Shown piece by piece: positions 2,129 through 29,968 of a DNA stretch of 37,897 bases. A program made the position numbers and the translations under genes. The notes under the pieces are model-generated. The model had not been told where the DNA came from. It saw only the letters and a program-made list of their open reading frames with translations, and ran no database searches. This DNA comes from a virus, in the IMG/VR virus record IMGVR_UViG_3300014827_000009, positions 1 through 37,897 of that record. One strand, 5' to 3'. How positions within the stretch are numbered: position 1 is the stretch's first letter; the number at the start of each line of letters is the position of its first letter.

Positions 2129-2911
2129 ATGGGAAAAGAATTATTAAGGAGTTTAGAATTAAACAGGATATATCAAATGGATTGTTTAGAAGGAATGAAG
2201 CTGATACCTGATAAAAGTGTTGATATGATCCTCTGTGATTTACCATATGGGACTACACAAAATAAATGGGACTCTATTATTCCACTGGATAAACTATGGG
2301 AGCAATATAATAGAATAATTAAAGACAAAGGAATGATATGCTTAACATCTGCGGAGCCATTCACTAGTATGTTAATTACGAGTAATATGAAAATGTTTAG
2401 ATATGATTTAATTTGGGAGAAAAGTCATGCGGTGGGATTTCTAAATGCTAGACGAATGCCAATGAGAAAACATGAAAATATATTAACTTTTTATAAGCAT
2501 TTGCCTGTTTATAACCCACAAATAGAAGATAAACCCAAAGAAAATATTAGACCAATATCAACTAAGAATAGACTTACTTCTAATTATGGAAAGTTTGATG
2601 AAGGCAATCATAGAACAATACCAAATGATAAAACGTATCCTGCAAGTGTTCTGAAAATACCAAATGAATCTAAAACTGCAACTTTTCATCCAACGCAGAA
2701 ACCAGTTAAACTTTTTGAATGGCTAATTAAATCTTTTACTAACGAAGGTGATTTGGTCTTAGACAATTGCATGGGTAGTGGGACAACTGCTGTCGCATGT
2801 ATATTAAATAAGCGTAAATGGATTGGTTTTGAAACTGACTCAAAATACATAGAACTTGCAAACAAACGACTTGAACAAATACAATTAGGTGATGATATGA
2901 AGGTTTACTAA
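2129..2911 (+). CDS. DNA methyltransferase, beta-class (amino-methyltransferase), 260 aa
   Basis: The product would transfer methyl from S-adenosylmethionine to an exocyclic amino group in DNA (N6-adenine or N4-cytosine). The catalytic motif IV is DLPYGTT at residues 37-43. HPTQKPVKLFEWLIK (motif X region) comes late, followed by the SAM-binding DNCMGSGTTAV near residue 213. This order (IV, recognition region, X, I) is the beta class. The length matches solitary phage methyltransferases. No restriction endonuclease is adjacent, so it is probably an orphan that protects the element or modifies its own regulation. The start has a GGAGG SD, and the leader carries TTTCATGCTAATACG and TATAAATA. 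Confidence 0.92.
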   Translation: MGKELLRSLELNRIYQMDCLEGMKLIPDKSVDMILCDLPYGTTQNKWDSIIPLDKLWEQYNRIIKDKGMICLTSAEPFTSMLITSNMKMFRYDLIWEKSHAVGFLNARRMPMRKHENILTFYKHLPVYNPQIEDKPKENIRPISTKNRLTSNYGKFDEGNHRTIPNDKTYPASVLKIPNESKTATFHPTQKPVKLFEWLIKSFTNEGDLVLDNCMGSGTTAVACILNKRKWIGFETDSKYIELANKRLEQIQLGDDMKVY

Positions 2912-2980
2912 AATACATAAATCGGCAATGTAATTTAACAAAAAAGTTCATGTTTCAAAGGGGGAAGGAGAATTTTTTTA

Positions 2981-3127
2981 ATGATTCCTTGGGAAGAACA
3001 GATTCCAGAATGCACAGGGTGCGTGTATCACGAACCACCATATGATATTTGCAGATGTTGTCATTTTGCGTTTAGCGAAAACAAAACAAACTATTTCGAA
3101 CAGAAGGAGGAAATAAAATATGATTAA
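2981..3127 (+). CDS. Cys-rich mini-protein, 48 aa
   Basis: A very short gene with a strong SD (GGGGGAAGGAG, 2960-2970). It encodes MIPWEEQIPECTGCVYHEPP and then YDICRCCHF. The CxxC at 11-14 and CRCCH at 24-28 could form one zinc site. It ends inside the start of the next gene (8-base overlap), and the next gene's SD AGAAGGAGG lies in its last codons, so the two are probably translationally coupled. Similar Cys-rich mini-proteins recur through the array. Confidence 0.7.
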   Translation: MIPWEEQIPECTGCVYHEPPYDICRCCHFAFSENKTNYFEQKEEIKYD

Positions 3128-9389: not shown

Positions 9390-10910
9390 GTGACAACTAT
9401 TACGGAAAGTAAGACAAAAAGTACAACCAAGAAATCTGCATTTGAAGAGGAAACAATAAAAACCACAAAATTAATCATGACTTACAAGTTAGCATGTGAA
9501 GCTAATATAGTCTCCATATGTTGGTCTATGCCAGAAATGTATTATACATATGATAAATTAAATATTAAATTGTTCAATAATAACTGTTGGAAGGTATATT
9601 TTCAGATAGGATATGACATTGTAATCAAGGAAAGAAAGCAAGTGCTTGATGATATCACTGTTGGTTTATATCTTGAAAAACATTTAAAACTTAAAGAGCA
9701 GTATGAAAAATATAAAGGTTATGAAACAATTGAGAACGCAAAGGCATATGTTAAGACAGATAATATGGATGGTTATATTAATGAACTGTATAAATGGAAT
9801 GCTGTACTAGATTTACTTAAAAGAAAGTTTGCTATTGCTGATAGAATCAAGGACTTTGTGGATATGACTTCTGAGCAAATATATGATGAGTTTGAAGCAG
9901 TATTGAATCATGTATTTGTTAATGTAGAAGGCGATGACTTTACTTATGATATTGCAGATGGTTTGGATGAATTAATTGAAGAACTAGATCAAGGAACTGC
10001 AATAGGACTTCCATTAAATAATGCCCCAATATTGAATAAAGAAATAGGAGGTAATCTTGAGGGCAATATTACTTTGGTTGGAGGATTAAGTGGTGCAGGC
10101 AAGACTGCTATGAGTAGGACATTAATTATTCCAAGCATCCTTGAACACAAAGAAAAGATTGTCATCATGATAAACGAGGAAGGGAAAAAGAAGTGGCAGC
10201 GCGAAATGCTCGTATGGATCGCGAACAATGTTTTCAAGGAAGATTTACAAAAGTATGTGGTAAGAGATGGTAAATATAAAACAGAAACAAAGGAATTATT
10301 AAAAAAATGTTCTGAATGGTTAAAGCAATATAAGAATAGTATTATTTTGAAACCATTCACACAATATACCACTGCCAAAGCAATTAAGACAATCAAGAAA
10401 TACTCTAGTATGGGTGTTAAATACTTCATCCTTGATACTTACAAAGCAGACGCTAACACATCAGATAGTCAAGCATTTTGGTTTAGTATGCAACAGAATA
10501 TGGTTGAGATAAACGATGTTATCAAGGCAGAAGCAAAGAACGTACATATTTGGATTACATTTCAATTAAGTAAAGGGAGTTCTAAGCAAAGATATTATGA
10601 TCAAGATAATATTGGTATGGCTAAAAACATTGTAGACGTTGCCTCAACATGTCTTATGATTAGAAAGATATTTGATGATGAACTAGAGGGTGGAAAACGA
10701 GAACTAGATGTCTATAGAAAAGAAAAAAGACAAGGCAATATAGAGTCTCAGATACCAGTTAAATTAAAAAAGGGTAAAAATTATCAGTTGATATTTATTG
10801 TTAAGAATCGCGAAGGTAGTACAAATGATTATCAGATAGTCGTGGAACATGACCTTTCTAGAAATACATATAAAGAAATTGGTTATACTGTTGTGCCAGT
10901 AGACTTCTAG
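9390..10910 (+). CDS. DnaB-like replicative helicase, 506 aa
   Basis: A GTG at 9390 follows AAGAGGTAG. The product would unwind DNA at the fork as a RecA-fold hexamer. The N-terminal half (about 1-190) is helical. The helicase core begins near residue 195, with Walker A GGLSGAGKT at about 231-239. It continues with VIMINEEGKKKWQREM, the Walker B-like KYFILDTYKADAN, the sensor-type IWITFQLSKG, and IVDVASTCLMIRK. The overall order matches DnaB/gp41-type helicases, but the sequence is divergent. It is followed by the primase-like gene, the usual helicase-primase pairing. Confidence 0.85.
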   Translation: MTTITESKTKSTTKKSAFEEETIKTTKLIMTYKLACEANIVSICWSMPEMYYTYDKLNIKLFNNNCWKVYFQIGYDIVIKERKQVLDDITVGLYLEKHLKLKEQYEKYKGYETIENAKAYVKTDNMDGYINELYKWNAVLDLLKRKFAIADRIKDFVDMTSEQIYDEFEAVLNHVFVNVEGDDFTYDIADGLDELIEELDQGTAIGLPLNNAPILNKEIGGNLEGNITLVGGLSGAGKTAMSRTLIIPSILEHKEKIVIMINEEGKKKWQREMLVWIANNVFKEDLQKYVVRDGKYKTETKELLKKCSEWLKQYKNSIILKPFTQYTTAKAIKTIKKYSSMGVKYFILDTYKADANTSDSQAFWFSMQQNMVEINDVIKAEAKNVHIWITFQLSKGSSKQRYYDQDNIGMAKNIVDVASTCLMIRKIFDDELEGGKRELDVYRKEKRQGNIESQIPVKLKKGKNYQLIFIVKNREGSTNDYQIVVEHDLSRNTYKEIGYTVVPVDF

Positions 10911-13130: not shown

Positions 13131-16100
13131 ATGGACAATTTTACGGCTTATCACGTTCACGATGATACGAGTAACTGTAATGGTTATGCTGACTCATGCT
13201 CTAGTTATAAAGAATATATAAAGTTAGCTAAAAAACAAGGCATGAAGGCGATTGCATTCTCGAATCACGGAGGCATGTATGATTGGATGAAGAAGAAGCA
13301 GGATTGTGATAAAGCAGGGGTTAAATACATACATGGCATCGAATCATATTTATGTACTAAATTTGAATCGGACGAAAGAGGATACCATATTGGTTTGTAT
13401 GCTAAAAACTATGATGGTGTTTTGGAGTTAAATTTATTAAATTCTAAATCTACTTCTAAAGGCAAACTGGATGATAAAACAGATAGACATATGTATTATA
13501 ATCCTAGAATATCTCTTGAAGAATTAATGAAAACAAGCGAAAATATCATTGTCACGACTGCTTGTTTAGCTTCAATCTTATGGAGAAAAAAAGATGATGA
13601 GGATGATTATGTTTTAAGATTCCTTGAATGGATGTCTAAGAATAGTAGTAGATGCTTTTTAGAGATCCAATACCACACTCATATACAACAAATAGAATAT
13701 AATAAATTATTATGGGGTTGGAGTAAACAATATAATATCCCTCTCATAGCAGGTACAGATACGCATTCATCTTCAAAATACAAGGCAGAATGCAGAAAAA
13801 TACTACAAATATCAAAGGATAGTTTTTATGGAGACGAAGATGCATTTGATTTAACATGGAAGAGTTTCAATGAATTGGTTGAATGTTTTAAAACTCAAAA
13901 CGCACTACCTGAAGATGTATGGATGGGTGCTATAGATAATACCAATAAGCTTGCCGATATGGTAGAGGAGTTTAAATTAGATAAGTCATTCAAATACCCT
14001 AACCTATACGGTGATAATGCGGTAGATATTTGGAAGAAAACTATAGCAAAAAAACTACAATATAAAGTTGCTAATAAGATAATTGATATTGAACGTATTG
14101 TAGAATATAAGCTCAAAATTAAAGAAGAATTTTCTGCAATGAAAAAACAAAATATGGAAAGTTTTATGATGTTTATGGCAGAATTAGTTGACCATTGTAA
14201 TGAAAATGATATACCTTATGGGTTTTGCCGTGGATCAGTTGGTGGTAGCGAAATAGCGTTTATTACAGATATTACCGACGTAGACCCTTTAAGATGGAAT
14301 ACTGTTTTTTCAAGGTTTTGTAATGCAGAAAGGGTTTCTCTTGCAGATATTGATATAGATTTTGCACCAGAAGATCGTGTAAAAGTTTATGAATTTATTA
14401 TCAATAGATTTACACCTGAAAAAACTGCGTATATATCATCGTTCTCCACCTTGAGAGATAGAGGCACAATTGATGTATTAGCTAAAGGTTTAAAGTACGA
14501 AGATTTAGATGCAGTGATGGGTATTAAGAATCAATTCGATAAATTATTTGACGAGTATTTTAAAATTATTCAAGAAGAGGTCAACTTAGAAGAATTAGAA
14601 GAGGCAGATGCAAAGTCAGTTGATTTTGATTATCATGAAGTTTACTGTAGCAGGATAAGAAATGTTAAGTCCCTGACAAGAGCTAATAACTTAAAGAAAG
14701 AATTCCAAAATCTGAAAGATGATAACAAAGATTTATTTTATTACTTCGATGGATTAAAAGGGACCATTATTGCTAAAGGCACTCACCCAGCAGGTATCAT
14801 CGGATCGCCTATTACACTTGCTGATAACTTAGGTGTTTATTATAAGAACGGAGATGAGTCTCAGCCAGTATCAATATGTTCTATGAAAGCAGTAGATTCA
14901 GTGAACTTTGTTAAATTTGACATACTAGGATTAAAAGCCGTTGGGATCATGAAAGATATATACAAATATGTTAATTCAAATTATCTCAAAGCACATGAAA
15001 TTGATTGGAATGATAATAAAGTTTGGGACAATATGGTTACTTCAAGTGTCGGGGTCTTCCAATTTGAAGGAGATTACGCTTACTCACTACTCAAAGACTT
15101 CAAACCTCGTTTTATTAATGACATGTCCTTGGTGAATGCTGCACTACGTCCATCTGGAAAATCATACAGAGATAGACTGATTAGAAAAGAACTTAATGTA
15201 AATCCTTCAGAGCAATTAGATACTTTGTTACAAGACAATTATGGTTATCTAGTTTATCAAGAAGACACTATTAAATTCCTAACTGATATTTGTGGGTTTA
15301 GTGGGTCTTTAGCAGACACTACGAGAAGAGCAATTGGAAAGAAAGATATCGTCTTACTTACAGAGCAACTACCAAAGATACTTGAAGGATATTGTAATAA
15401 GTCTAATAAACCAAGAGAAGAAGCAGAAGAAGAAGTAAAACAATTCCTCCAAATTATTGATGATAGTTCGGAGTATCAATTTGGATATAATCACAGCACT
15501 GGTTATAGTATGAATGGGTATGCAGAGACTAGATTGAGAACATATTATCCCTTAGAATTTGTTACAGCGTACTTAAATAGATCAGAAAATACCGAGGACA
15601 CCAATAGAGGGATCGCACTTGCACAACAATTAAATATTAAGATTAACCCTATATCATTTGGAAAATCGGTTGCAGAATACACATATGACAAAAAAGAAAA
15701 CAGTATCTATAAAGGTATTGCATCAATTAAATTTCTTAATGAACAAGTGCCAAAAGAATTATACGATTTAGCGCAGCAAAAAGAATATACTGATTTCATT
15801 GATTTATTGGGTGATATAAAAACTACGTGTGTCAATACTCGTCAACTTAAAATTTTGACAGGATTAAATTTCTTTAGGAGATTTGGTAAAAATAAAAAAC
15901 TTCTTCAGATTATAGAATCATACGATAATTTTGCTTCACGTAAACAAATCAACTTCAAAGATATTACTAAACTCAATATTAACGAACGTATGTTGCAGAG
16001 ATATAGTAATAAAACAACAGAAACTCTTTATAAAGAATTAGATATGATGGGGTATATCAGAGAAGCGATACAAACAATTGAAGATAAACCTTTGTCAATC

Positions 16101-16427
16101 AAAGAACAAGTAAAATTCGAGATGGAGTTCCTAGAATATACCGAATACATAAACGAGAATGCTGGGGATGGGTTTTATATTATAACCAAATTTGAGACAT
16201 ATAAAGACAAAACTAAGCCGTATTTAACTATGAGACAAGTAAAAACAGGGATAGATATGAGGACAAAGATTAAAGATGGTAAGATTTATGTAGAGAATCC
16301 ATTCAAACTATATGATGTTCTAAAAGTTAATGCATTTAAGACACAGTATAAAACTAAGAACGTAGGTGGTAAATGGATGAAATCAAATGAACTTGAGGAG
16401 ATTCTTATTAGTTATGAAGTGTATTAA
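13131..16427 (+). CDS. dnaE: DNA polymerase III alpha subunit (C-family, DnaE-like), 1098 aa
   Basis: An ATG at 13131 follows TAGGAGGAA. The N-terminal PHP domain (about 1-260) starts YHVHDDTSNCNG, with HxH, and has FSNHGGMYDW and GTDTHSSS. The catalytic region has YGFCRGSVGGSEIAF, the aspartates of DIDIDF (D406, D408, D410) and the third carboxylate in KFDILGLKAVG (D597). VYQEDTIKFLTDICGF and a helix-hairpin-type region follow, and the C-terminal 200 residues are OB/accessory-like. Close to full length for DnaE. There is no separate exonuclease domain. It would be the element's own replicative polymerase. Confidence 0.93.
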   Translation: MDNFTAYHVHDDTSNCNGYADSCSSYKEYIKLAKKQGMKAIAFSNHGGMYDWMKKKQDCDKAGVKYIHGIESYLCTKFESDERGYHIGLYAKNYDGVLELNLLNSKSTSKGKLDDKTDRHMYYNPRISLEELMKTSENIIVTTACLASILWRKKDDEDDYVLRFLEWMSKNSSRCFLEIQYHTHIQQIEYNKLLWGWSKQYNIPLIAGTDTHSSSKYKAECRKILQISKDSFYGDEDAFDLTWKSFNELVECFKTQNALPEDVWMGAIDNTNKLADMVEEFKLDKSFKYPNLYGDNAVDIWKKTIAKKLQYKVANKIIDIERIVEYKLKIKEEFSAMKKQNMESFMMFMAELVDHCNENDIPYGFCRGSVGGSEIAFITDITDVDPLRWNTVFSRFCNAERVSLADIDIDFAPEDRVKVYEFIINRFTPEKTAYISSFSTLRDRGTIDVLAKGLKYEDLDAVMGIKNQFDKLFDEYFKIIQEEVNLEELEEADAKSVDFDYHEVYCSRIRNVKSLTRANNLKKEFQNLKDDNKDLFYYFDGLKGTIIAKGTHPAGIIGSPITLADNLGVYYKNGDESQPVSICSMKAVDSVNFVKFDILGLKAVGIMKDIYKYVNSNYLKAHEIDWNDNKVWDNMVTSSVGVFQFEGDYAYSLLKDFKPRFINDMSLVNAALRPSGKSYRDRLIRKELNVNPSEQLDTLLQDNYGYLVYQEDTIKFLTDICGFSGSLADTTRRAIGKKDIVLLTEQLPKILEGYCNKSNKPREEAEEEVKQFLQIIDDSSEYQFGYNHSTGYSMNGYAETRLRTYYPLEFVTAYLNRSENTEDTNRGIALAQQLNIKINPISFGKSVAEYTYDKKENSIYKGIASIKFLNEQVPKELYDLAQQKEYTDFIDLLGDIKTTCVNTRQLKILTGLNFFRRFGKNKKLLQIIESYDNFASRKQINFKDITKLNINERMLQRYSNKTTETLYKELDMMGYIREAIQTIEDKPLSIKEQVKFEMEFLEYTEYINENAGDGFYIITKFETYKDKTKPYLTMRQVKTGIDMRTKIKDGKIYVENPFKLYDVLKVNAFKTQYKTKNVGGKWMKSNELEEILISYEVY

Positions 16428-16444: not shown

Positions 16445-18697
16445 TTGAAAGATAAAATTATAGTAGAGTTTCAAGGAACTGTAGTTGCTAATCCATATAA
16501 TACTGAGGATTTTAAAATATATGGGTTAGTAGTTGATAATATTAAATTTCCTAATATTCAAATAAACAACTACGGCAATGTAAGTCTTATTGGTAATCTT
16601 CCAGACCTTGAGGATGGAGTCGAATATAGCATAAAAGCAGAAGAGCAAAAAGGCAAGAATGGGATGTCTTATAAGTTTATCAATATAAAACGAGATAGGC
16701 CCAAAACAGAAGCATCAACTAGATTGTTCCTGCAAAGTATATTAGATAGTAATAGTCATGTTGATGAGGTCATGAGAGAGTATCCAGACATTATTGATAG
16801 AGTGATTAATAATCGTCTGGAGGATATTGACTTAAATAAACTATATAATATAGGAGAATTTAGGTTCAATGTTATTAAGCGAAAGATTATAGAAAACTTC
16901 TCATTAGCAGAGTTAGTTACAGAGTTTAAGGGATTTATTGAGTTCAAGGTCTTAAAAATCCTTTATGATAAATATGGTTCAATTGAAAAGATAGTAGAGA
17001 AACTACAAGATAATCCATACAAGTGTTTATGTGGTTTATCACGTATCGCGTTCAAAACAGCAGATAAGATACTCCTAGAGTTTAACAAAGAGTGTATGAA
17101 TATGAAAGCTAAAGGAGAAAAACCACCTATTGATTTTACATTTGATTTGGCAACCTCAAGTCAAAGACAAAAATCAGCTATTATGTTCTTGTTGGGTGAG
17201 AATGAAAATGATGGTAATACAAAGATTGATATAAAAACTCTGAGAAAGCAATCTGAAGCTATTGCAAATAAGTGTATTGAACACTTTGTTGATATTATAA
17301 AGAATGATGAAGATGTACACTTTGACAAAGATAATCATACAGTTTCCTTAGAAGAGACATATGAGACAGAGAAATACATAGCTAATAAGATATTACAAGG
17401 TTTAAAAGTAGATAATAAGTGGAACTTAGATACGGAGAAATACAAAGTTAATTGTGATGTTACTCTCACAGATCAACAGTATCAAGTTCTACCTATGGTA
17501 TGTAATTCAAATATATGCATCCTCAATGGGTTCGGTGGTTCAGGCAAAAGTCAAACAACTAAATCAATTATTGACATGCTGAGAGCTAATAATAAAACAT
17601 TTATCTTATTAGCACCTACTGGCAGAGCGTCTAAGGTGCTCTCAGAATTCACCAAAGAACCTGCATCTACAATTCATCGTGGACTAGGTTATATGCCCCC
17701 TGTGTGGTCTTACAATGAAGATTATCCATTGCCTTATGATATAGTAATTGCAGATGAGTTTTCTATGGTCGATGTGTTCTTAAACAAGAGATTATTAGAA
17801 GCTATAAACTTCAATAATACAAAGTTATTGATGATTGGAGACTCTGCTCAAATACCTTCTGTTGGGGCTGGAAATGTTTTCTTTGATTTAATTAACTCTA
17901 ATACAATTCCAATTGTTTCACTCACACAAATATTTAGATATGGAGAAGGAGGAGTTTTAACAGTAGCAACTAAGACTAGAAATAGTGACAAATTTTTAAG
18001 TGAATCGAAAAGTCCACAAATATTTGGAGAAGACAAAGGTTATGTATTTATACCAACACAACAAGAAAAACTGATTAATAATATAACTAGTTTATATAAA
18101 AAACTATTAAGTTCAGGAAATTCCAAGGAAGATATCATGATATTATCGTCTTATAATATAGGTGAGTATGGGACTATAAATATCAATAAGCATCTTCAAC
18201 CTATCTCCAATCCTAATGTTTTAAGAAATGGAATAAATGTTCAACTTGGAGATACAAAGTTTTATGAAAATGATCTAGTAATTCAAACAATGAATAATTA
18301 TAAAGCAATTAAGCAAAATGATGGATGGGATGAAGAGGAAAAAACATTCATTGCAAATGGCGAAATAGGTAAAATAGTTAAGATTGATCATGGCAAAGTA
18401 ATTATACAATTTGATGAGTTAGTTGTTTATACTAAGGCAGATTTAATAAATGTTAAATTAGCCTACAGCATTAGCACGCATAAAAGCCAGGGAGGTCAAG
18501 CAAAGATAGTAATTCTTATCACTCCTAAAGCCCACACATTTATGCTAAATAGTAATCTTATCTATGTAGGACAAACAAGAGCAAAACAAAAGGTATTTCA
18601 CTTTGGGGAAATAGAAACAGTCAATAGAGCAATTAAAAAGAAGGCTGATTTCAACAGGAAAACATACCTTAAAGAATTAGTTACTAATAATATATAA
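16445..18697 (+). CDS. RecD2-like SF1B DNA helicase, 750 aa
   Basis: The TTG at 16445 is the first start with acceptable spacing from AAGGAAGTAGG; a nearby ATG (16438) runs into a stop. An N-terminal OB-like segment and helix-hairpin repeats occupy about residues 1-330. Walker A is GFGGSGKSQTT (G362-), Walker B is IADEFSMVD (D437-E438). MIGDSAQIPSVGAG, QIFRYGEGG and the C-terminal AYSISTHKSQGGQAKIVI, YVGQTRAK are SF1B helicase motifs III-VI. This matches RecD2/TraA-type 5'-3' helicases. It is the last gene of the replisome operon; a new promoter begins six bases after the stop. Confidence 0.9.
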   Translation: MKDKIIVEFQGTVVANPYNTEDFKIYGLVVDNIKFPNIQINNYGNVSLIGNLPDLEDGVEYSIKAEEQKGKNGMSYKFINIKRDRPKTEASTRLFLQSILDSNSHVDEVMREYPDIIDRVINNRLEDIDLNKLYNIGEFRFNVIKRKIIENFSLAELVTEFKGFIEFKVLKILYDKYGSIEKIVEKLQDNPYKCLCGLSRIAFKTADKILLEFNKECMNMKAKGEKPPIDFTFDLATSSQRQKSAIMFLLGENENDGNTKIDIKTLRKQSEAIANKCIEHFVDIIKNDEDVHFDKDNHTVSLEETYETEKYIANKILQGLKVDNKWNLDTEKYKVNCDVTLTDQQYQVLPMVCNSNICILNGFGGSGKSQTTKSIIDMLRANNKTFILLAPTGRASKVLSEFTKEPASTIHRGLGYMPPVWSYNEDYPLPYDIVIADEFSMVDVFLNKRLLEAINFNNTKLLMIGDSAQIPSVGAGNVFFDLINSNTIPIVSLTQIFRYGEGGVLTVATKTRNSDKFLSESKSPQIFGEDKGYVFIPTQQEKLINNITSLYKKLLSSGNSKEDIMILSSYNIGEYGTININKHLQPISNPNVLRNGINVQLGDTKFYENDLVIQTMNNYKAIKQNDGWDEEEKTFIANGEIGKIVKIDHGKVIIQFDELVVYTKADLINVKLAYSISTHKSQGGQAKIVILITPKAHTFMLNSNLIYVGQTRAKQKVFHFGEIETVNRAIKKKADFNRKTYLKELVTNNI

Positions 18698-19663: not shown

Positions 19664-19858
19664 TTGTCTGATATTACTCAATGTCAATCTTTAAAATGTG
19701 CCAAGAGAAATCAATGCTACAGGATATTAGCTACACCTAGCGATCCACAAACATATGCTTTATTTGAACAAGTATGTACAGAGTTAAATGATTATAAATA
19801 TTTTTGGCAAGCAAGAAAAGAGTTTATTAAGGAAGAAGTTATTAAGGATAATAAATAA
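19664..19858 (+). CDS. Cys-containing small protein, 64 aa
   Basis: The SD AGGAGGTGAT (19649-19657) sets the TTG at 19664 as start; the upstream GTG would lie inside the SD. MSDITQCQSLKCAKRNQCYR has three Cys within twelve residues, and a fourth lies at VCTEL. This could be a small zinc or metal site. The C-terminus is a charged helix. It immediately precedes the ribonucleotide reductase gene, so a link to it is possible but unproven. Confidence 0.7.
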   Translation: MSDITQCQSLKCAKRNQCYRILATPSDPQTYALFEQVCTELNDYKYFWQARKEFIKEEVIKDNK

Positions 19859-19880
19859 TAATATTGGAGGATACATAAAT

Positions 19881-22800
19881 TTGAAAATAGAGCAATGGCT
19901 TACAGAACAACTAGGGAAAGATATTTGGGATAATAAATACCGATTTAAAACAGAATCATTTGATGAATGGGTAGATAGAGTATCGGCAGGTAATGAAGAA
20001 ACTAAACGATTAATCTATGAAAAGAAGTTCCTATTTGGTGGAAGAACATTATCAAATAGAAATACAGGTAAAAATGCAAGTTATAGCAATTGTTATTCAA
20101 GTGGTTATGCTCCAGATTCTCTACTAGGAATTATGGAACTCAATACCAATCTTGCTATGACTTATAAATCTCAAGGTGGTCAAGGATTATCATTATCTAA
20201 GATCAGACCAAAGGGAACGGATATTAATGGACAATTTGAATCAGATGGAATTTTACCTTTTATGAGAATTTTTAATATTACTACAGAAAGTGTTAGTCAA
20301 GGTGGTAGCAGAAAAGGTGCTCTATTAATGTCTCTTGCTTGTGACCATAAAGAAATTAATGAGTTTATTAATATTAAGACTAAAGATAACTCAATTAATA
20401 AAGCAAACCTTTCAGTTGAATTTGATGATGAGTTTATGTTAGCTGTTAAGAAATTCTATAAAACAGGTGAAAAAACAGTCCTTGATATTACTAAAGTATA
20501 TGAAGGTAAAACTATTACATATAAGATAACTCCAATTGATGTATATAAAAACTTTGCAAATAGTTCATATAACTGGGCAGAACCAGGTGCAATCATGACT
20601 CAAAGGTTTAGAAATTATAATCTAATGGAGTTTATTGTCGAATATGAGATTGTAACAGGCAACCCTTGCTTCACAGGAGATATGGAATTGCTAACAAAGG
20701 AAGGTTATAAAACACTCTCAGAATTAGAAGATAAAGAAGTACAAATTATTAATCCTGATGGCAACACATCAGAAGGAAAAGTTTGGTGTAGTGGAGAGAA
20801 AGATATTATTCAACTTACTTTAAGTAACAAGAAGAGGATAAGATGCACTCCAGACCATGTATTCATGTTAAATAATAATAATGAGTCACAGGCTAAAGAT
20901 ACTCTAAAACAAAGATTAACCTCTTATTACGGAGAAACTAATTTATCAGAAGATATTTTTGTACAATTAGGGTTCATCCAAGGAGATGGATGTGTTGGCA
21001 GAATTAACTCAGAACATCATCTAGGATTAGAAGTCAATATTGGAGATAAGGATGATGAGATTTTAGACTTGTTTGAAGTATCTAAGGTTGAAGGGAAACG
21101 TGCTTATTACATAAATGGCTATAATGATCTATTGGTACAGTATGGGTTTGATGGTAGCGTATTACCAGAACGAGTATTCCCTATTACCTATACATCTTGG
21201 ATGAAGTTTCAAAGAGCAAATTTCTTAAAAGGATGTTATTCGGCAAATGGTTGTGTGATTAAAACTCACAGAGTATCATACAAAACTACTTCAAAAGTAT
21301 TCTCATTGCAGTTAAAGAAAGCATTAGAAGAATTTGGGATCACGGCATATATTACTACTAATAAACCAACAATGGTTAAGTTTTCAAATGGAGACTACCT
21401 ATGCAAAGAAAGTTATGATGTTAACATTAGTAGATTAACTGATATAATTACATTTTATCAATCCATAGGGTTTATGCAACAATACAAAATCCATGATTTA
21501 GTTGATTTAATTAAAATTAAGAGTCCAAAAGTGACATCTATTAAAAAACTTCCAAAAGAAAAAGTATATGATTTCTCTGAGCCATTAACCCATTGGGGAG
21601 TAGTAGAAGGAGTAGTCGTACATAATTGTGGGGAACAACCTCTTCCAAAGGATGGTGCATGTAATTTAGGTTCAATGAATTTTTCTGCCTATGTTGTGAA
21701 CCCATATACTAAAGAATCATACTTTGATGATGATGCATTTTCAGAAGACGTTGGAGTAGCTATTAAATCATTAGATAATGTCTTAGACGAAGGGAAACTT
21801 CTTCATGCCTTAGAAAGTCAAAGACAAATGGCAAATGATTATAGGAATGTTGGATTAGGAATTATGGGTCTTGGTGATATGTTTATTAAATTAGGTATGA
21901 AGTATGGTAGTGAAGAATCTAAAAAAATACTTGAGACTATCATGATTGAAATGTTTAGAAGTGCTGTCTGGAAGAGTGCAGAATTAGCAGTAGAGAAAGG
22001 CAGTTTTCCTAAATATTCAGATAAAGTATTTGATTCAACTATTATTAAAAATCATTTTAGTGAAAAAGAAATTGGTACACTTAAAAAAATGGGATTAAGA
22101 AACTGTTCGCTTCTAAGTATTGCACCTTCTGGATCTATTGGAACAATGTTAGATATTACAACTGGAATTGAACCTTGTTTTTCACTTTCATACCAAAGAA
22201 AGACAGAATCATTACATAAAGATAAAGAAGTATCTTACACAGTATTCATGAGTAGTGCAAAAGAGTATATGGAATTATACAATACAGAAGTGTTACCTGA
22301 TTACTTCGTTACATCAAATGACATTCCTTGGAAAGATAGAATTGATATTCAATCTATTGCACAAAATCATGTAGACACAGCAATTTCTTCTACTGTAAAC
22401 CTTCCAGAGAGTGCGACGCTTGAAGAAGTCGAACAGTTGTATTTATATGCTTGGGAGAAAAAATTGAAGGGCGTGACTATTTTTAGAGACAATTGTGCAA
22501 GACTTGGTATTTTAACAAAACCAACAGTAGAAAAGAAAGCTATTGAAACAGTATTAGATCGTGGGTTTGTGACTAAAGCTCCATCAGAAGCAGAAGGTAA
22601 GACATATAAATTTGTTAGTGGCTGCGGTAATGCATATGTTGGAGTGACATGGGATGATAAAGGCAAGATTAATCAAACATTTACTAATAAAGGAAGTAGT
22701 GGTACATGTAGAAGTAATCAAGAAGCTGTTTCAAGATTGGTATCATTAGCATTGCGTGGTGGTATCCCCATTGAGAAGATTATTGATCAATTAGAAAGTG

Positions 22801-23075
22801 TAGATATTTGTCCATCATACATAAGCGCTAGAGCTAAAGGGAAACCAGTTAGTAAAGGAGTTAGTTGCCCACATGCTATTGCTAATATTCTTAAACAAGC
22901 AATTAAAGATGTTGGTGTTAAATTTGAGAATGTTGATATGATTTTGCAAACTAAGAAAGTAGTAAAAGAAGAAGTTGTTGATAATTCAAGATTATGCCCA
23001 GAATGCAAAGAATCTCTAGTCAGTGAAGGTGGTTGCATTCAATGCAAAAATTGTGGTTATAGTAAATGCGAATAA
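19881..23075 (+). CDS. nrdJ: adenosylcobalamin-dependent (class II) ribonucleotide reductase, intein-containing
   Basis: It makes deoxyribonucleotides from ribonucleotides. The start is the TTG at 19881 after TTGGAGG; the frame is open upstream but without an SD. The precursor has 1064 codons. Removing the 320-aa intein leaves 744 aa, a normal NrdJ size. Extein motifs include NASYSNCYSSGYAP (redox Cys), YKSQGGQGLSLSKIRP, the split NP/CGEQPLPKDGACNLGSMN (the N-x-C-x-E thiyl-radical site), LLSIAPSGSIGTMLDITTGIEP, and a C-terminal Cys-rich ribbon (RLCPECKESLVSEGGC, CKNCGYSKCE) typical of class II enzymes. It needs the host's cobalamin. dUTPase follows at once. Confidence 0.93.
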   Translation: MKIEQWLTEQLGKDIWDNKYRFKTESFDEWVDRVSAGNEETKRLIYEKKFLFGGRTLSNRNTGKNASYSNCYSSGYAPDSLLGIMELNTNLAMTYKSQGGQGLSLSKIRPKGTDINGQFESDGILPFMRIFNITTESVSQGGSRKGALLMSLACDHKEINEFINIKTKDNSINKANLSVEFDDEFMLAVKKFYKTGEKTVLDITKVYEGKTITYKITPIDVYKNFANSSYNWAEPGAIMTQRFRNYNLMEFIVEYEIVTGNPCFTGDMELLTKEGYKTLSELEDKEVQIINPDGNTSEGKVWCSGEKDIIQLTLSNKKRIRCTPDHVFMLNNNNESQAKDTLKQRLTSYYGETNLSEDIFVQLGFIQGDGCVGRINSEHHLGLEVNIGDKDDEILDLFEVSKVEGKRAYYINGYNDLLVQYGFDGSVLPERVFPITYTSWMKFQRANFLKGCYSANGCVIKTHRVSYKTTSKVFSLQLKKALEEFGITAYITTNKPTMVKFSNGDYLCKESYDVNISRLTDIITFYQSIGFMQQYKIHDLVDLIKIKSPKVTSIKKLPKEKVYDFSEPLTHWGVVEGVVVHNCGEQPLPKDGACNLGSMNFSAYVVNPYTKESYFDDDAFSEDVGVAIKSLDNVLDEGKLLHALESQRQMANDYRNVGLGIMGLGDMFIKLGMKYGSEESKKILETIMIEMFRSAVWKSAELAVEKGSFPKYSDKVFDSTIIKNHFSEKEIGTLKKMGLRNCSLLSIAPSGSIGTMLDITTGIEPCFSLSYQRKTESLHKDKEVSYTVFMSSAKEYMELYNTEVLPDYFVTSNDIPWKDRIDIQSIAQNHVDTAISSTVNLPESATLEEVEQLYLYAWEKKLKGVTIFRDNCARLGILTKPTVEKKAIETVLDRGFVTKAPSEAEGKTYKFVSGCGNAYVGVTWDDKGKINQTFTNKGSSGTCRSNQEAVSRLVSLALRGGIPIEKIIDQLESVDICPSYISARAKGKPVSKGVSCPHAIANILKQAIKDVGVKFENVDMILQTKKVVKEEVVDNSRLCPECKESLVSEGGCIQCKNCGYSKCE
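20667..21626 (+). mobile_element. intein with LAGLIDADG endonuclease region, inserted at the RNR catalytic Cys
   Basis: The intein starts with Cys (residue 263, CFTGDMELLTKEGYKTLSEL). Block B holds RCTPDHVFML. It ends VYDFSEP then THWGVVEGVVVHN, with the penultimate His and terminal Asn needed for splicing, and the next extein residue is Cys. So all protein-splicing residues are present. Endonuclease motifs are LGFIQGDGCV and FLKGCYSANG. In the second the expected acidic residue (ADG) is Asn, so cleavage activity may be reduced or lost. Length 320 aa. Confidence 0.93.
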
Positions 23076-28049: not shown

Positions 28050-28058
28050 TGTGGATAA
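28050..28058 (-). promoter_or_regulatory. DnaA box
   Basis: TGTGGATAA on plus, a perfect match to TTATCCACA on minus. It lies just after the stop of the gene at 27614. Confidence 0.75.
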
Positions 28059-28118: not shown

Positions 28119-28177
28119 GTCAAAATTCTTTACTAGTCGCTAGTCAAAATTCTTTACTAGTCAAAATTCTTTACTAC
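28119..28177 (+). repeat. iterons, three direct copies
   Basis: GTCAAAATTCTTTACTAG at 28119-28136 and 28143-28160, and GTCAAAATTCTTTACTAC at 28160-28177. Copies one and two are 24 bases apart, two and three 17 bases apart and share one base. Confidence 0.85.
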
Positions 28178-28184
28178 TATTTTC

Positions 28185-28193
28185 TGTGGATAA
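28185..28193 (-). promoter_or_regulatory. DnaA box
   Basis: A second perfect TGTGGATAA, between the direct iterons and the inverted copy. Confidence 0.75.
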
Positions 28194-28204
28194 GTACCCT
28201 CTAC

Positions 28205-28222
28205 CTAGTAAAGAATTTTGAC
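28205..28222 (-). repeat. inverted iteron copy
   Basis: CTAGTAAAGAATTTTGAC is the exact reverse complement of the first two iterons. Together with them it can form a long cruciform, or bind the initiator in the opposite direction. It lies 11 bases past the rep stop codon side. Confidence 0.8.
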
Positions 28223-28233
28223 TACTTGACATT

Positions 28234-28626
28234 TTAACATTTTCTCTCTTCCATCATAATTTCATATAATTTTTCTGCACTAATCATTCCTGTTTTATGC
28301 ATATTCTCTACTTCTTCAGTTTCCTCTGAGCACAAGAAATACATCTTTTTCATATTACCCAACTTACCAAGCTTCGCAGACCATAGATATCCTTCATCTT
28401 CCAACCATTTCATTCCAGTTATGACGCTAGGTTTTGACAATAATGTGAGTTTAGTTAGTTGAGAAATGCTTATCCAATCACCAGTTTTAGAAAACCCCCA
28501 ACACTTTCTGATCATAATCAAGTAACATTTTAATGCTGATAAATTTGTGATACGAGGTATCAACTCATCAAATACAATATTTGGAACTTCCATATAATTT
28601 TTCTGTGGTTTAGGTAATCTAAACAA
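28234..28626 (-). CDS. RepO-like replication initiator, winged-helix domain, 130 aa
   Basis: A TTG start at 28626 with SD AAGAGGG. Residues about 10-90 match the phage replication protein O N-terminal domain: NYMEVPNIVFDELIPRITNL, LKCYLIMIRKCWGFSKTGDW, ISISQLTKLTLLSKPSVITG and MKWLEDEGYLW, a winged helix. The C-terminal 40 residues are charged (EETEEVENMHKTGMIS). In lambda-type systems this domain binds origin iterons, and here iterons lie directly beyond its 3' end. No helicase-loader domain is fused. The leader is about 210 bases and is covered by a candidate antisense RNA. Confidence 0.78.
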   Translation of the reverse strand: MFRLPKPQKNYMEVPNIVFDELIPRITNLSALKCYLIMIRKCWGFSKTGDWISISQLTKLTLLSKPSVITGMKWLEDEGYLWSAKLGKLGNMKKMYFLCSEETEEVENMHKTGMISAEKLYEIMMEERKC

Positions 28627-28640
28627 ATCATTTCCCTCTT

Positions 28641-28661
28641 TCTAGCAAAAGCAATGCTAGA
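28641..28661 (-). promoter_or_regulatory. hairpin just upstream of the rep SD
   Basis: On minus, TCTAGCA and TGCTAGA pair around TTGCTTT, immediately before AAGAGGG. There is no U-tract, so it is not an attenuator; it may affect access to the SD. Its sequence overlaps the -35 of the antisense promoter on plus. Confidence 0.5.
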
Positions 28662-28685
28662 CATTCAGAAAATACATGTTATAAT
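28658..28685 (+). promoter_or_regulatory. promoter of the candidate antisense RNA
   Basis: TAGACA (28658-28663), 16 bases, TATAAT (28680-28685). There is no gene with an SD downstream on this strand before the terminator at 28751. Confidence 0.65.
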
Positions 28686-28691
28686 GAGATA

Positions 28692-28797
28692 AGAGTTTCC
28701 CTTGTGGGACAAACAAATATCGTTTACAACTGAATCTTCCCTGTCTTGAACCCTTAATGTGAACAGTTTGGCTGCCGAACACATTGAGGGTTTTGCT
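28692..28797 (+). ncRNA. candidate antisense (countertranscript) RNA over the rep leader
   Basis: About 105 nt from the promoter at 28658 to a strong intrinsic terminator. It can form GTTTCCC TTGT GGGACAAAC as a first hairpin, a small AAAC/GTTT hairpin, then the large terminator stem. It lies entirely opposite the predicted rep mRNA leader (about 28839 to 28626, minus). This is the arrangement of plasmid copy-number RNAs such as RNAIII of pIP501. Size and ends are predictions. Confidence 0.62.
28751..28797 (+). terminator. intrinsic terminator of the antisense RNA
   Basis: CCCTTAATGT (28751-28760) pairs with ACATTGAGGG (28781-28790), one T-G pair. A five-base bulge follows, then GTTTGG/CCGAAC with triloop CTG. 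TTTT follows at 28791. Confidence 0.75.
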
Positions 28798-28845
28798 ATG
28801 CCACCAATTAAATTAATTTCTTCACAAGATATTTCTATCCCTTGT

Positions 28846-28873
28846 ATTATACTATAAATCGACAGGCTGTGCA
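28846..28873 (-). promoter_or_regulatory. predicted rep promoter
   Basis: On minus: TGCACA (28873-28868), 16 bases, TATAAT (28851-28846). The -35 lies inside a DnaA-box match (28868-28876), which would couple rep transcription to DnaA. The predicted start is near 28839. Confidence 0.5.
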
Positions 28874-28934
28874 TAAGTTTTTAGAAATATTTTCCCTTGT
28901 GTGTAACTTATGGTAGAAAATAAAGTTATACACA
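28868..28934. promoter_or_regulatory. second DnaA-box cluster
   Basis: TGTGCATAA (28868-28876) and TTATACACA (28926-28934) both fit TTATNCACA, and TGTGTGTAA (28898-28906) fits with one mismatch. Three sites in 67 bases upstream of rep. Confidence 0.55.
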
Positions 28935-29088: not shown

Positions 29089-29116
29089 ATTAAATTATTG
29101 GAGGAGGAACATAGCA

Positions 29117-29968
29117 ATGGCAATTCAAATCATCCCAATTGACACAGGCCGTAGTTCTACAAAATTATTAAATGGGGTATCATTTAAATCAGTAGTCGGG
29201 GATTGGCATCATAGGGAAATATCTGATGATGAAGAATATGAAGTTATTATTAATGACAAAGAAAAATACTTTGTAGGTCAACTTGCACTAGATGAAAGTT
29301 TTGCACCTGTAGAAATGAATACTGCTTCTAAGATCCATAATCAAACTCGTGTATTGTTTTTAACTGGTGTAGCGTTATCAATTACTGAAGATGATTCAGA
29401 TTTATTCATTATTACAGGAGTACCAGTAGCAGACTTCAATACTAATACTAAATCTGCATTAGAAAATTTACTCTATGGAAAATATGATGTTCAAATAAAT
29501 GGAGTACACAAAAAATTTACCATCAATAATATTACAATGATTCCCGAGGGTGTCGCTGCGTTCCAATATGCGTTATCTAAAGATGAAAGCTTGGACGCTG
29601 GTAAAAAGAGAATTATTGATATTGGTTCTCTTACTGTTAACTATTCCAGTTTAAATGGTACTAAGTTTGTAACTAGGGACTCAGGCACAATTCCTTTCGG
29701 CACAATTAAAACTAAAGGAAAACAAATTGATAATGAGCAATATGTGGCAAAGATTATTGCTGAACTTAGTCAAAAATTTACTGACTATGACGAGTCTGAT
29801 AAGGTACTATTAACTGGCGGTGGGGCTTTACAATTTGGAGAATTATTTAAAAAATATTATAAGAATGCAGAAATTATTTTTAACCCTATTTTCAGTAATT
29901 GTGAAGGTTACCATAGAATGGGCGTGAAAAAATGGGCAAAAACACAGTCGAAAGCCAAAGCAGAGTAA
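29117..29968 (+). CDS. parM: ParM-like actin-family segregation ATPase, 283 aa
   Basis: The SD GGAGGAGG (29099-29107) sets the ATG at 29117; the frame is open upstream without an SD. It has the actin-fold signatures in order: IIPIDTGRSSTKLL (phosphate 1, residues 5-18), IIDIGSLTVNY (phosphate 2, about 174-184) and VLLTGGGALQF (adenosine motif, about 240-250). Its length is short-normal for ParM/StbA-type proteins. It should polymerise into filaments that separate plasmid copies, with the small ParR-like protein overlapping its 3' end as adaptor. Confidence 0.87.
   Translation: MAIQIIPIDTGRSSTKLLNGVSFKSVVGDWHHREISDDEEYEVIINDKEKYFVGQLALDESFAPVEMNTASKIHNQTRVLFLTGVALSITEDDSDLFIITGVPVADFNTNTKSALENLLYGKYDVQINGVHKKFTINNITMIPEGVAAFQYALSKDESLDAGKKRIIDIGSLTVNYSSLNGTKFVTRDSGTIPFGTIKTKGKQIDNEQYVAKIIAELSQKFTDYDESDKVLLTGGGALQFGELFKKYYKNAEIIFNPIFSNCEGYHRMGVKKWAKTQSKAKAE

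Follow-up and report, generated by a model that had tools for sequence, protein, structure and literature searches.

The stretch of DNA analysed here, referred to as the window, is an entire IMG/VR virus record of 37,897 nt, which apparently does not represent a complete genome. Our analysis centres on a short minus-strand replication gene, rep, and the region between it and a divergent partition gene:

28234-28626, minus strand: rep, encoding a 130-aa RepO-type winged-helix initiator, with a TTG start at 28626
28634-28639, minus strand: ribosome-binding site of rep, AGAGGG, located 7 nt 5' of the TTG at typical spacing, as read from the sequence
29114-29968, plus strand: divergent neighbour of rep, encoding an actin-like partition protein of the ParM type (PF17989, E 2.3e-23; phrog_691, partition protein)

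The reading frame, the TTG start and the AGAGGG motif are as an earlier note on this DNA had described them, and its identification of a RepO-like winged-helix protein is borne out by profile searches. Rep matches PF04492 (Phage_rep_O) with 29.4 bits, above the cut-off of 28.7, over residues 10-83, which covers the winged-helix domain, and it also matches PHROG families of the type 'replication initiation O-like'; a six-frame search of the record with PF04492 yielded 28.3 bits, slightly below the cut-off. The AlphaFold2 model of Rep (mean pLDDT 84) comprises a helix-turn-helix, a wing and two C-terminal helices, and structure comparison with this model gave generic winged-helix matches only (TubR, MarR types and the DnaD N-domain), none with an E-value below 1e-3. 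According to profile searches, the RepA_N (PF06970) and Bac_RepA_C (PF18008) domains are absent from Rep.

Downstream of rep, and outside the gene, lies a block of repeats accompanied by two sites that resemble DnaA boxes in sequence:

28119-28222: four iterons (CTAGTAAAGAATTTTGAC), three direct and one inverted, the likely origin
28050-28058: DnaA-box-like TGTGGATAA
28185-28193: DnaA-box-like TGTGGATAA between the iterons

The relatives L008, L010 and L011 share this layout, the latter two with a different repeat sequence. Between two subgroups, the iterons vary in step with the Rep recognition helix (residues 61-71): in the window and L008 the helix reads TLLSKPSVITG and the iterons contain AAAGAATTTTGAC, and in most other close relatives the helix reads TGLSRQSCI and the repeats contain TAGAATTTAGAC. 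We infer that Rep probably is the initiator acting at this iteron origin.

Opposite the rep leader, the plus strand carries a compact promoter-terminator unit, which faces a predicted promoter for rep itself:

28658-28663, plus strand: -35 element of the antisense promoter, TAGACA (promoter scan and shuffle test)
28680-28685, plus strand: -10 element, TATAAT, with TG extension and a 16-nt spacer (promoter scan and shuffle test)
28692-28797, plus strand: predicted antisense RNA of about 105 nt, its start placed 7 nt past the -10 element, with a small 5' hairpin at 28698-28709 (folding)
28749-28792, plus strand: antisense terminator hairpin; in the rep leader the same stretch forms the target hairpin, SLI (T-run at 28791-28794; stem covariation)
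28846-28873, minus strand: predicted rep promoter, TGCACA-16-TATAAT, its spacer containing TGTCGA; L010 has the same site

The antisense promoter had been noted before as TAGACA-16-TATAAT and stands up well to scrutiny: it matches 11 of 12 consensus bases, ranks first among 27 promoter-like sites between 26.5 and 30.5 kb, and scores above all 300 dinucleotide shuffles of its own region. The same holds for the claim that some 105 nt without a gene lie opposite the rep leader, as the plus strand over the unit contains no gene of note; moreover, because the minus-strand promoter at 28873-28846 puts the rep start near 28839, both RNAs would overlap fully. The terminator had been called strong, which is fair for its stem (13 pairs, one mismatch, 18-nt loop) and less so for its tail, which is merely TTTT. 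Our automated terminator scan overlooked this hairpin, since it limits loops to 8 nt. Folding of the antisense strand gave a z of -2.07, and no Rfam family matched.

The rep leader is predicted to fold into three elements, namely SLI, a long helix between two segments termed P and P', and a hairpin just 5' of the ribosome-binding site. P adjoins SLI; P' shares positions with the antisense promoter and abuts the hairpin:

28717-28748, minus strand: P, pre-emptor segment, the sense-strand counterpart of the antisense RNA's 5' region (with P shuffled, the ribosome-binding site closes)
28660-28684, minus strand: P', switch segment, its predicted partner being either P (open) or the ribosome-binding site (closed)
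28641-28661, minus strand: hairpin TCTAGC-ATTGCTTTT-GCTAGA, directly 5' of the ribosome-binding site and the predicted core of the closed state

An equivalent of this hairpin is present in the leaders of relatives. In the window it is followed by AAGAGGGAAATG, bearing out the earlier remark that it has no U-tract; its role needs to be redrawn, as it merely forms the core of the switch, and the part that changes partners is P'. In the predicted closed state, ATTTTCT (28667-28673) pairs with GGGAAAT (28630-28636). Several further candidates were rejected. A leader peptide found no support, as the 69-aa minus-strand ORF at 28665-28874 begins 5' of the predicted promoter and has no family match, and a reading frame across the L002 leader is not common to the other relatives. 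Pairing of the target-hairpin loop with the loop of the ribosome-binding-site hairpin, sought by eye, was dropped because it is not universal and fails in L012. YUNR U-turn motifs occur in most loops and carry no weight, since chance alone gives about one per loop.

We modelled the antisense-bound state by removing or masking the region that the antisense RNA would cover, using single-strand energies at 37 °C rather than simulating the duplex. In each of the 16 leaders tested (L014 was left out), opening the ribosome-binding site was predicted to become more costly once P was removed, by 1.6-10.4 kcal/mol, with P' pairing with the ribosome-binding site instead; folding, one of the checks suggested in the earlier note, thus yields two exclusive leader conformations. 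The same measure for 27 other gene leaders of the window, taken as a control, averaged -0.7 and reached at least 1.5 in two. Shuffled P left the ribosome-binding site closed (Stouffer z -10.8 for ten leaders, which are related and not fully independent), indicating that P itself, not mere upstream RNA, keeps the site open; as all 17 loci are related, such combined z-scores overstate independence, and the P test is individually weak in L008, L011 and L015. In the window, opening the site is predicted to cost 1-2 kcal/mol in the open versus about 5.5 in the closed state, whichever start sites are assumed. Here the pairing of P' with the ribosome-binding site is modest, at about seven pairs, some of them G-U, and shuffled upstream sequence closes the window site equally well in 23% of cases. 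As a positive control, pSK41 was taken through the same procedure, which returned a switch of 7-10 kcal/mol and an RNAI promoter whose predicted transcript measures about 84 nt.

Using Rep and Rep alignments as queries, we identified 16 distinct relatives besides the window; they lie on virus-like contigs and, in the case of L018, on a contig of a Bacilli MAG. Their loci stem mostly from a small set of metagenomes, and the plasmid collection contained no relative of the window by DNA or, at E 1e-5, by Rep protein. On direct inspection, the antisense promoter-terminator unit is present in 17 of 17 loci. The promoter was found in all 11 loci examined first, ten of them with an extended -10 element, at a mean z of 4.3 versus shuffles and beating essentially all dinucleotide shuffles (1.7% of shuffles in the worst case, L016), and also in the six loci found later; the terminator hairpin occurs in all 17. 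A fixed automatic promoter-plus-terminator rule recovered the unit on the antisense strand of 16 of 17 family leaders, with the match in L018 being a second unit farther upstream, and missed L021, as its promoter matches only 9 of 12 consensus bases. Applied to the sense strand, this rule returned none; among the controls it picked out 2 of 321 random stretches but not one of the 12 distant RepO phages.

The target hairpins themselves covary. Among 14 distinct hairpins, 5'-arm identity is 41% and 152 of 168 cells (90%) are paired; in pairwise comparison, 506 of 905 cells have changed on both sides, a count that exceeds the number of independent events because related loci were counted separately. 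Arms swapped between loci are paired to 55% on average and to 71% at most. This pattern, obtained by the comparison of relatives that the earlier note had called for, is the one expected if an antisense RNA and its target had diverged in the manner of incompatibility determinants. Taken together, the 17 loci and the covariation constitute comparative evidence that strongly supports the proposed antisense control of a RepO-like initiator.

Three side observations concern the leaders of relatives. First, the loop AGTTTTGCCGACACA of L008 and L012 is the exact reverse complement, over 15 nt, of the L011 loop (shuffles reach 9 at most), and the loop comparison sets L008/L012 against L011/L018; an inversion of the target loop between the two arms of the stem seems to have taken place and would alter antisense specificity. 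Second, L008, L009, L011, L012, L013 and L018 have a second, conserved antisense-strand promoter and a terminator about 290-410 nt upstream of rep, of the type TTGATT-16/17-TATAAT (TTTACA-17-TATAAT in L018), and a sense-strand terminator hairpin (AAAGTTAGTAGT...ACTAACTTTTTT) between this second unit and the first. The second unit, which was not seen in the window, could be a further layer of RNA control or an insulator. Third, TGTCGA(A), which resembles a Spo0A box, is conserved upstream of rep in 15 of 17 loci, on the sense strand and 5' of the target hairpin; in the window it sits at 28859-28864 (minus strand) inside the predicted rep promoter. It might link replication to sporulation or serve as some other operator.

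Based on these results, we consider it probable that an antisense RNA of about 105 nt limits the RepO-type Rep through a leader switch that acts on translation, much as in pSK41, beside an iteron origin. Without the antisense RNA, P would pair with P' in a long imperfect helix, leaving the ribosome-binding site free. The antisense RNA would bind the target hairpin and cover P, thereby releasing P', which would then pair with the ribosome-binding site atop the hairpin at 28641-28661, and no Rep would be made. As the antisense RNA would rise with copy number, replication would be under negative feedback; its probable starting point is the block of iterons immediately downstream of rep. It is from the anatomy, the conservation, the stem covariation and the two exclusive foldings, all computed or sequence-based, that we infer that both RNAs are made and bind each other, that translation is the step affected and that copy number follows.

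The output of the switch appears to differ within the family. The hairpin whose 3' arm contains the ribosome-binding site is trailed by a T-run of 4-6 in L016, L021-L025 and L029, a leader layout nearly identical to that of pSK41; in L029, P and the ribosome-binding-site arm consist of identical letters, AGACAGGGG. L014 has an extra 91-aa ORF (2726-3001) between the antisense unit and rep, which ends at the rep start and has its own leader with a terminator-like hairpin and T-run. Such T-runs, the terminator that precedes the next gene start in L014, and the example of pT181, which works that way (PMC5703833), would suit an antisense RNA that provokes premature termination of rep transcription, as in pT181/pIP501-type attenuation, instead of blocking translation. 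The hairpin of the window, however, has no U-tract, nor do those of L008-L013 and L018, and we regard attenuation as improbable here. Since the T-run is absent from the window clade, translation is the likely step there, and the mechanism would differ from classic attenuation, as had been anticipated. Family-wide, one antisense switch may have two outputs, one with a T-run in L016-like members and a translational one in the window clade. We consider it very unlikely that the antisense RNA acts mainly by interfering with transcription or by exposing the duplex to RNase III cleavage, the leader folds being side effects: two promoters do face each other across about 150 nt, and full complementarity would form a duplex, but the alternative pairings of P, P' and the ribosome-binding site are kept across very different sequences, and interference alone needs none of them. 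Scarcely credible is a control of copy number by the iterons, through Rep titration and handcuffing, with little or no part for the antisense RNA, as the four iterons and two DnaA-box-like sites, with their conserved layout downstream of rep, might suggest, for the antisense unit is found in 17 of 17 loci and covaries, and iterons and antisense control can coexist.

The 38-kb record carries a rather complete replication set of its own. On its plus strand we find genes for DNA polymerase III alpha (13131-16427), a RecD-like helicase (16445-18697) and a DnaB-like helicase (9390-10910), a ribonucleotide reductase gene split by an intein with a LAGLIDADG domain (19788-23075), and a gene for a DndB-like protein (PF14072; 34473-35825) that adjoins the gene of a 790-aa ATPase; the latter is 34-38% identical to Bacillus and Geobacillus phage proteins, for example from TP-84. 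The record gave no match to five terminase/portal profiles, nor to the relaxase profiles tried. Three relatives carry terminases, one of them together with a ParA-like protein near rep (named by sequence motifs only), suggesting that part of the family are probably phage-plasmids. A broader reading, which we offer as a serious possibility without leaning towards it, is that these loci represent an undescribed replicon family of Bacilli-associated extrachromosomal elements, some with phage terminases, that would combine a RepO-type initiator with one antisense leader switch, whose output would have diverged (a U-tract, for termination and/or a hidden ribosome-binding site, versus purely translational control in the window clade) and whose target loop would be invertible between members. 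If this were true, target-loop inversion would be a new way to change incompatibility. The 17 replicons would also offer a natural series in which to follow termination versus translation control of one RNA switch, and the origin of incompatibility groups.

In the literature, with subscription journals mostly outside our search, we came across no account of a RepO-type initiator under antisense control. The earlier note had taken Inc18 plasmids such as pIP501 as its model; the closest counterpart is instead RNAI of pSK41, an antisense RNA of about 83 nt that makes the rep leader hide its ribosome-binding site (PMC5703833). In both systems an antisense RNA of similar length, recognized in the window from sequence only, is bounded by a promoter and a terminator of its own and lies opposite the rep leader; the target hairpin lies well upstream of the start codon and is directly followed by P; the leader would sequester the ribosome-binding site after antisense binding, as folding predicts for the window; and parM adjoins rep. 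In contrast to pSK41, the closing helix of the window differs and lacks the T-run that trails the pSK41 hairpin, and its 130-aa RepO-type Rep has neither RepA_N nor Bac_RepA_C, both of which are found in pSK41 Rep. In RepA_N plasmids the origin is inside rep, whereas the iteron block of the window is downstream of it.

Other known systems share single aspects. RNAIII of Inc18/pIP501 is likewise directed against a long rep leader, but that system combines a PriCT_1 initiator and a CopR repressor with terminator-based attenuation, and none of these was found at the window rep; here Rep belongs to Phage_rep_O, the upstream neighbour is the divergent parM and not a CopR gene, and there is no U-tract. 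The pre-emptor logic recalls pT181 repC, where the antisense RNA frees the 5' arm of the ribosome-binding-site hairpin, but the output in pT181 is transcription termination, which the window hairpin without U-tract does not match, and pT181 replicates by the rolling-circle mode. With lambda-type O proteins, Rep has in common the N-terminal winged-helix DNA-binding domain and the binding-site repeats; it differs in consisting of the N-terminal domain only and in having its repeats outside the gene, and distant RepO phages are without the antisense unit (0/12).

The claim that no described system shows such a pairing has to be qualified by pPR9/pUSA03, in which a phage-type HTH initiator is joined to a pSK41-type RNAI control region (PMC5703833). 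It stands insofar as the two initiators are not the same protein: in pPR9 Rep, an HTH_36-like N-terminus accompanies a retained RepA C-terminal domain, and there is no convincing relation to the window Rep (hhalign probability 5%). In RepA_N plasmids of other genera, similar RNA control is not apparent (PMC5703833), and the module would therefore have spread apart from the initiator or arisen again. While the mechanism is thus already known from staphylococcal plasmids, the initiator family and the elements are new, and our analysis suggests that the antisense leader switch of staphylococcal RepA_N plasmids also occurs with an unrelated, phage-type initiator.
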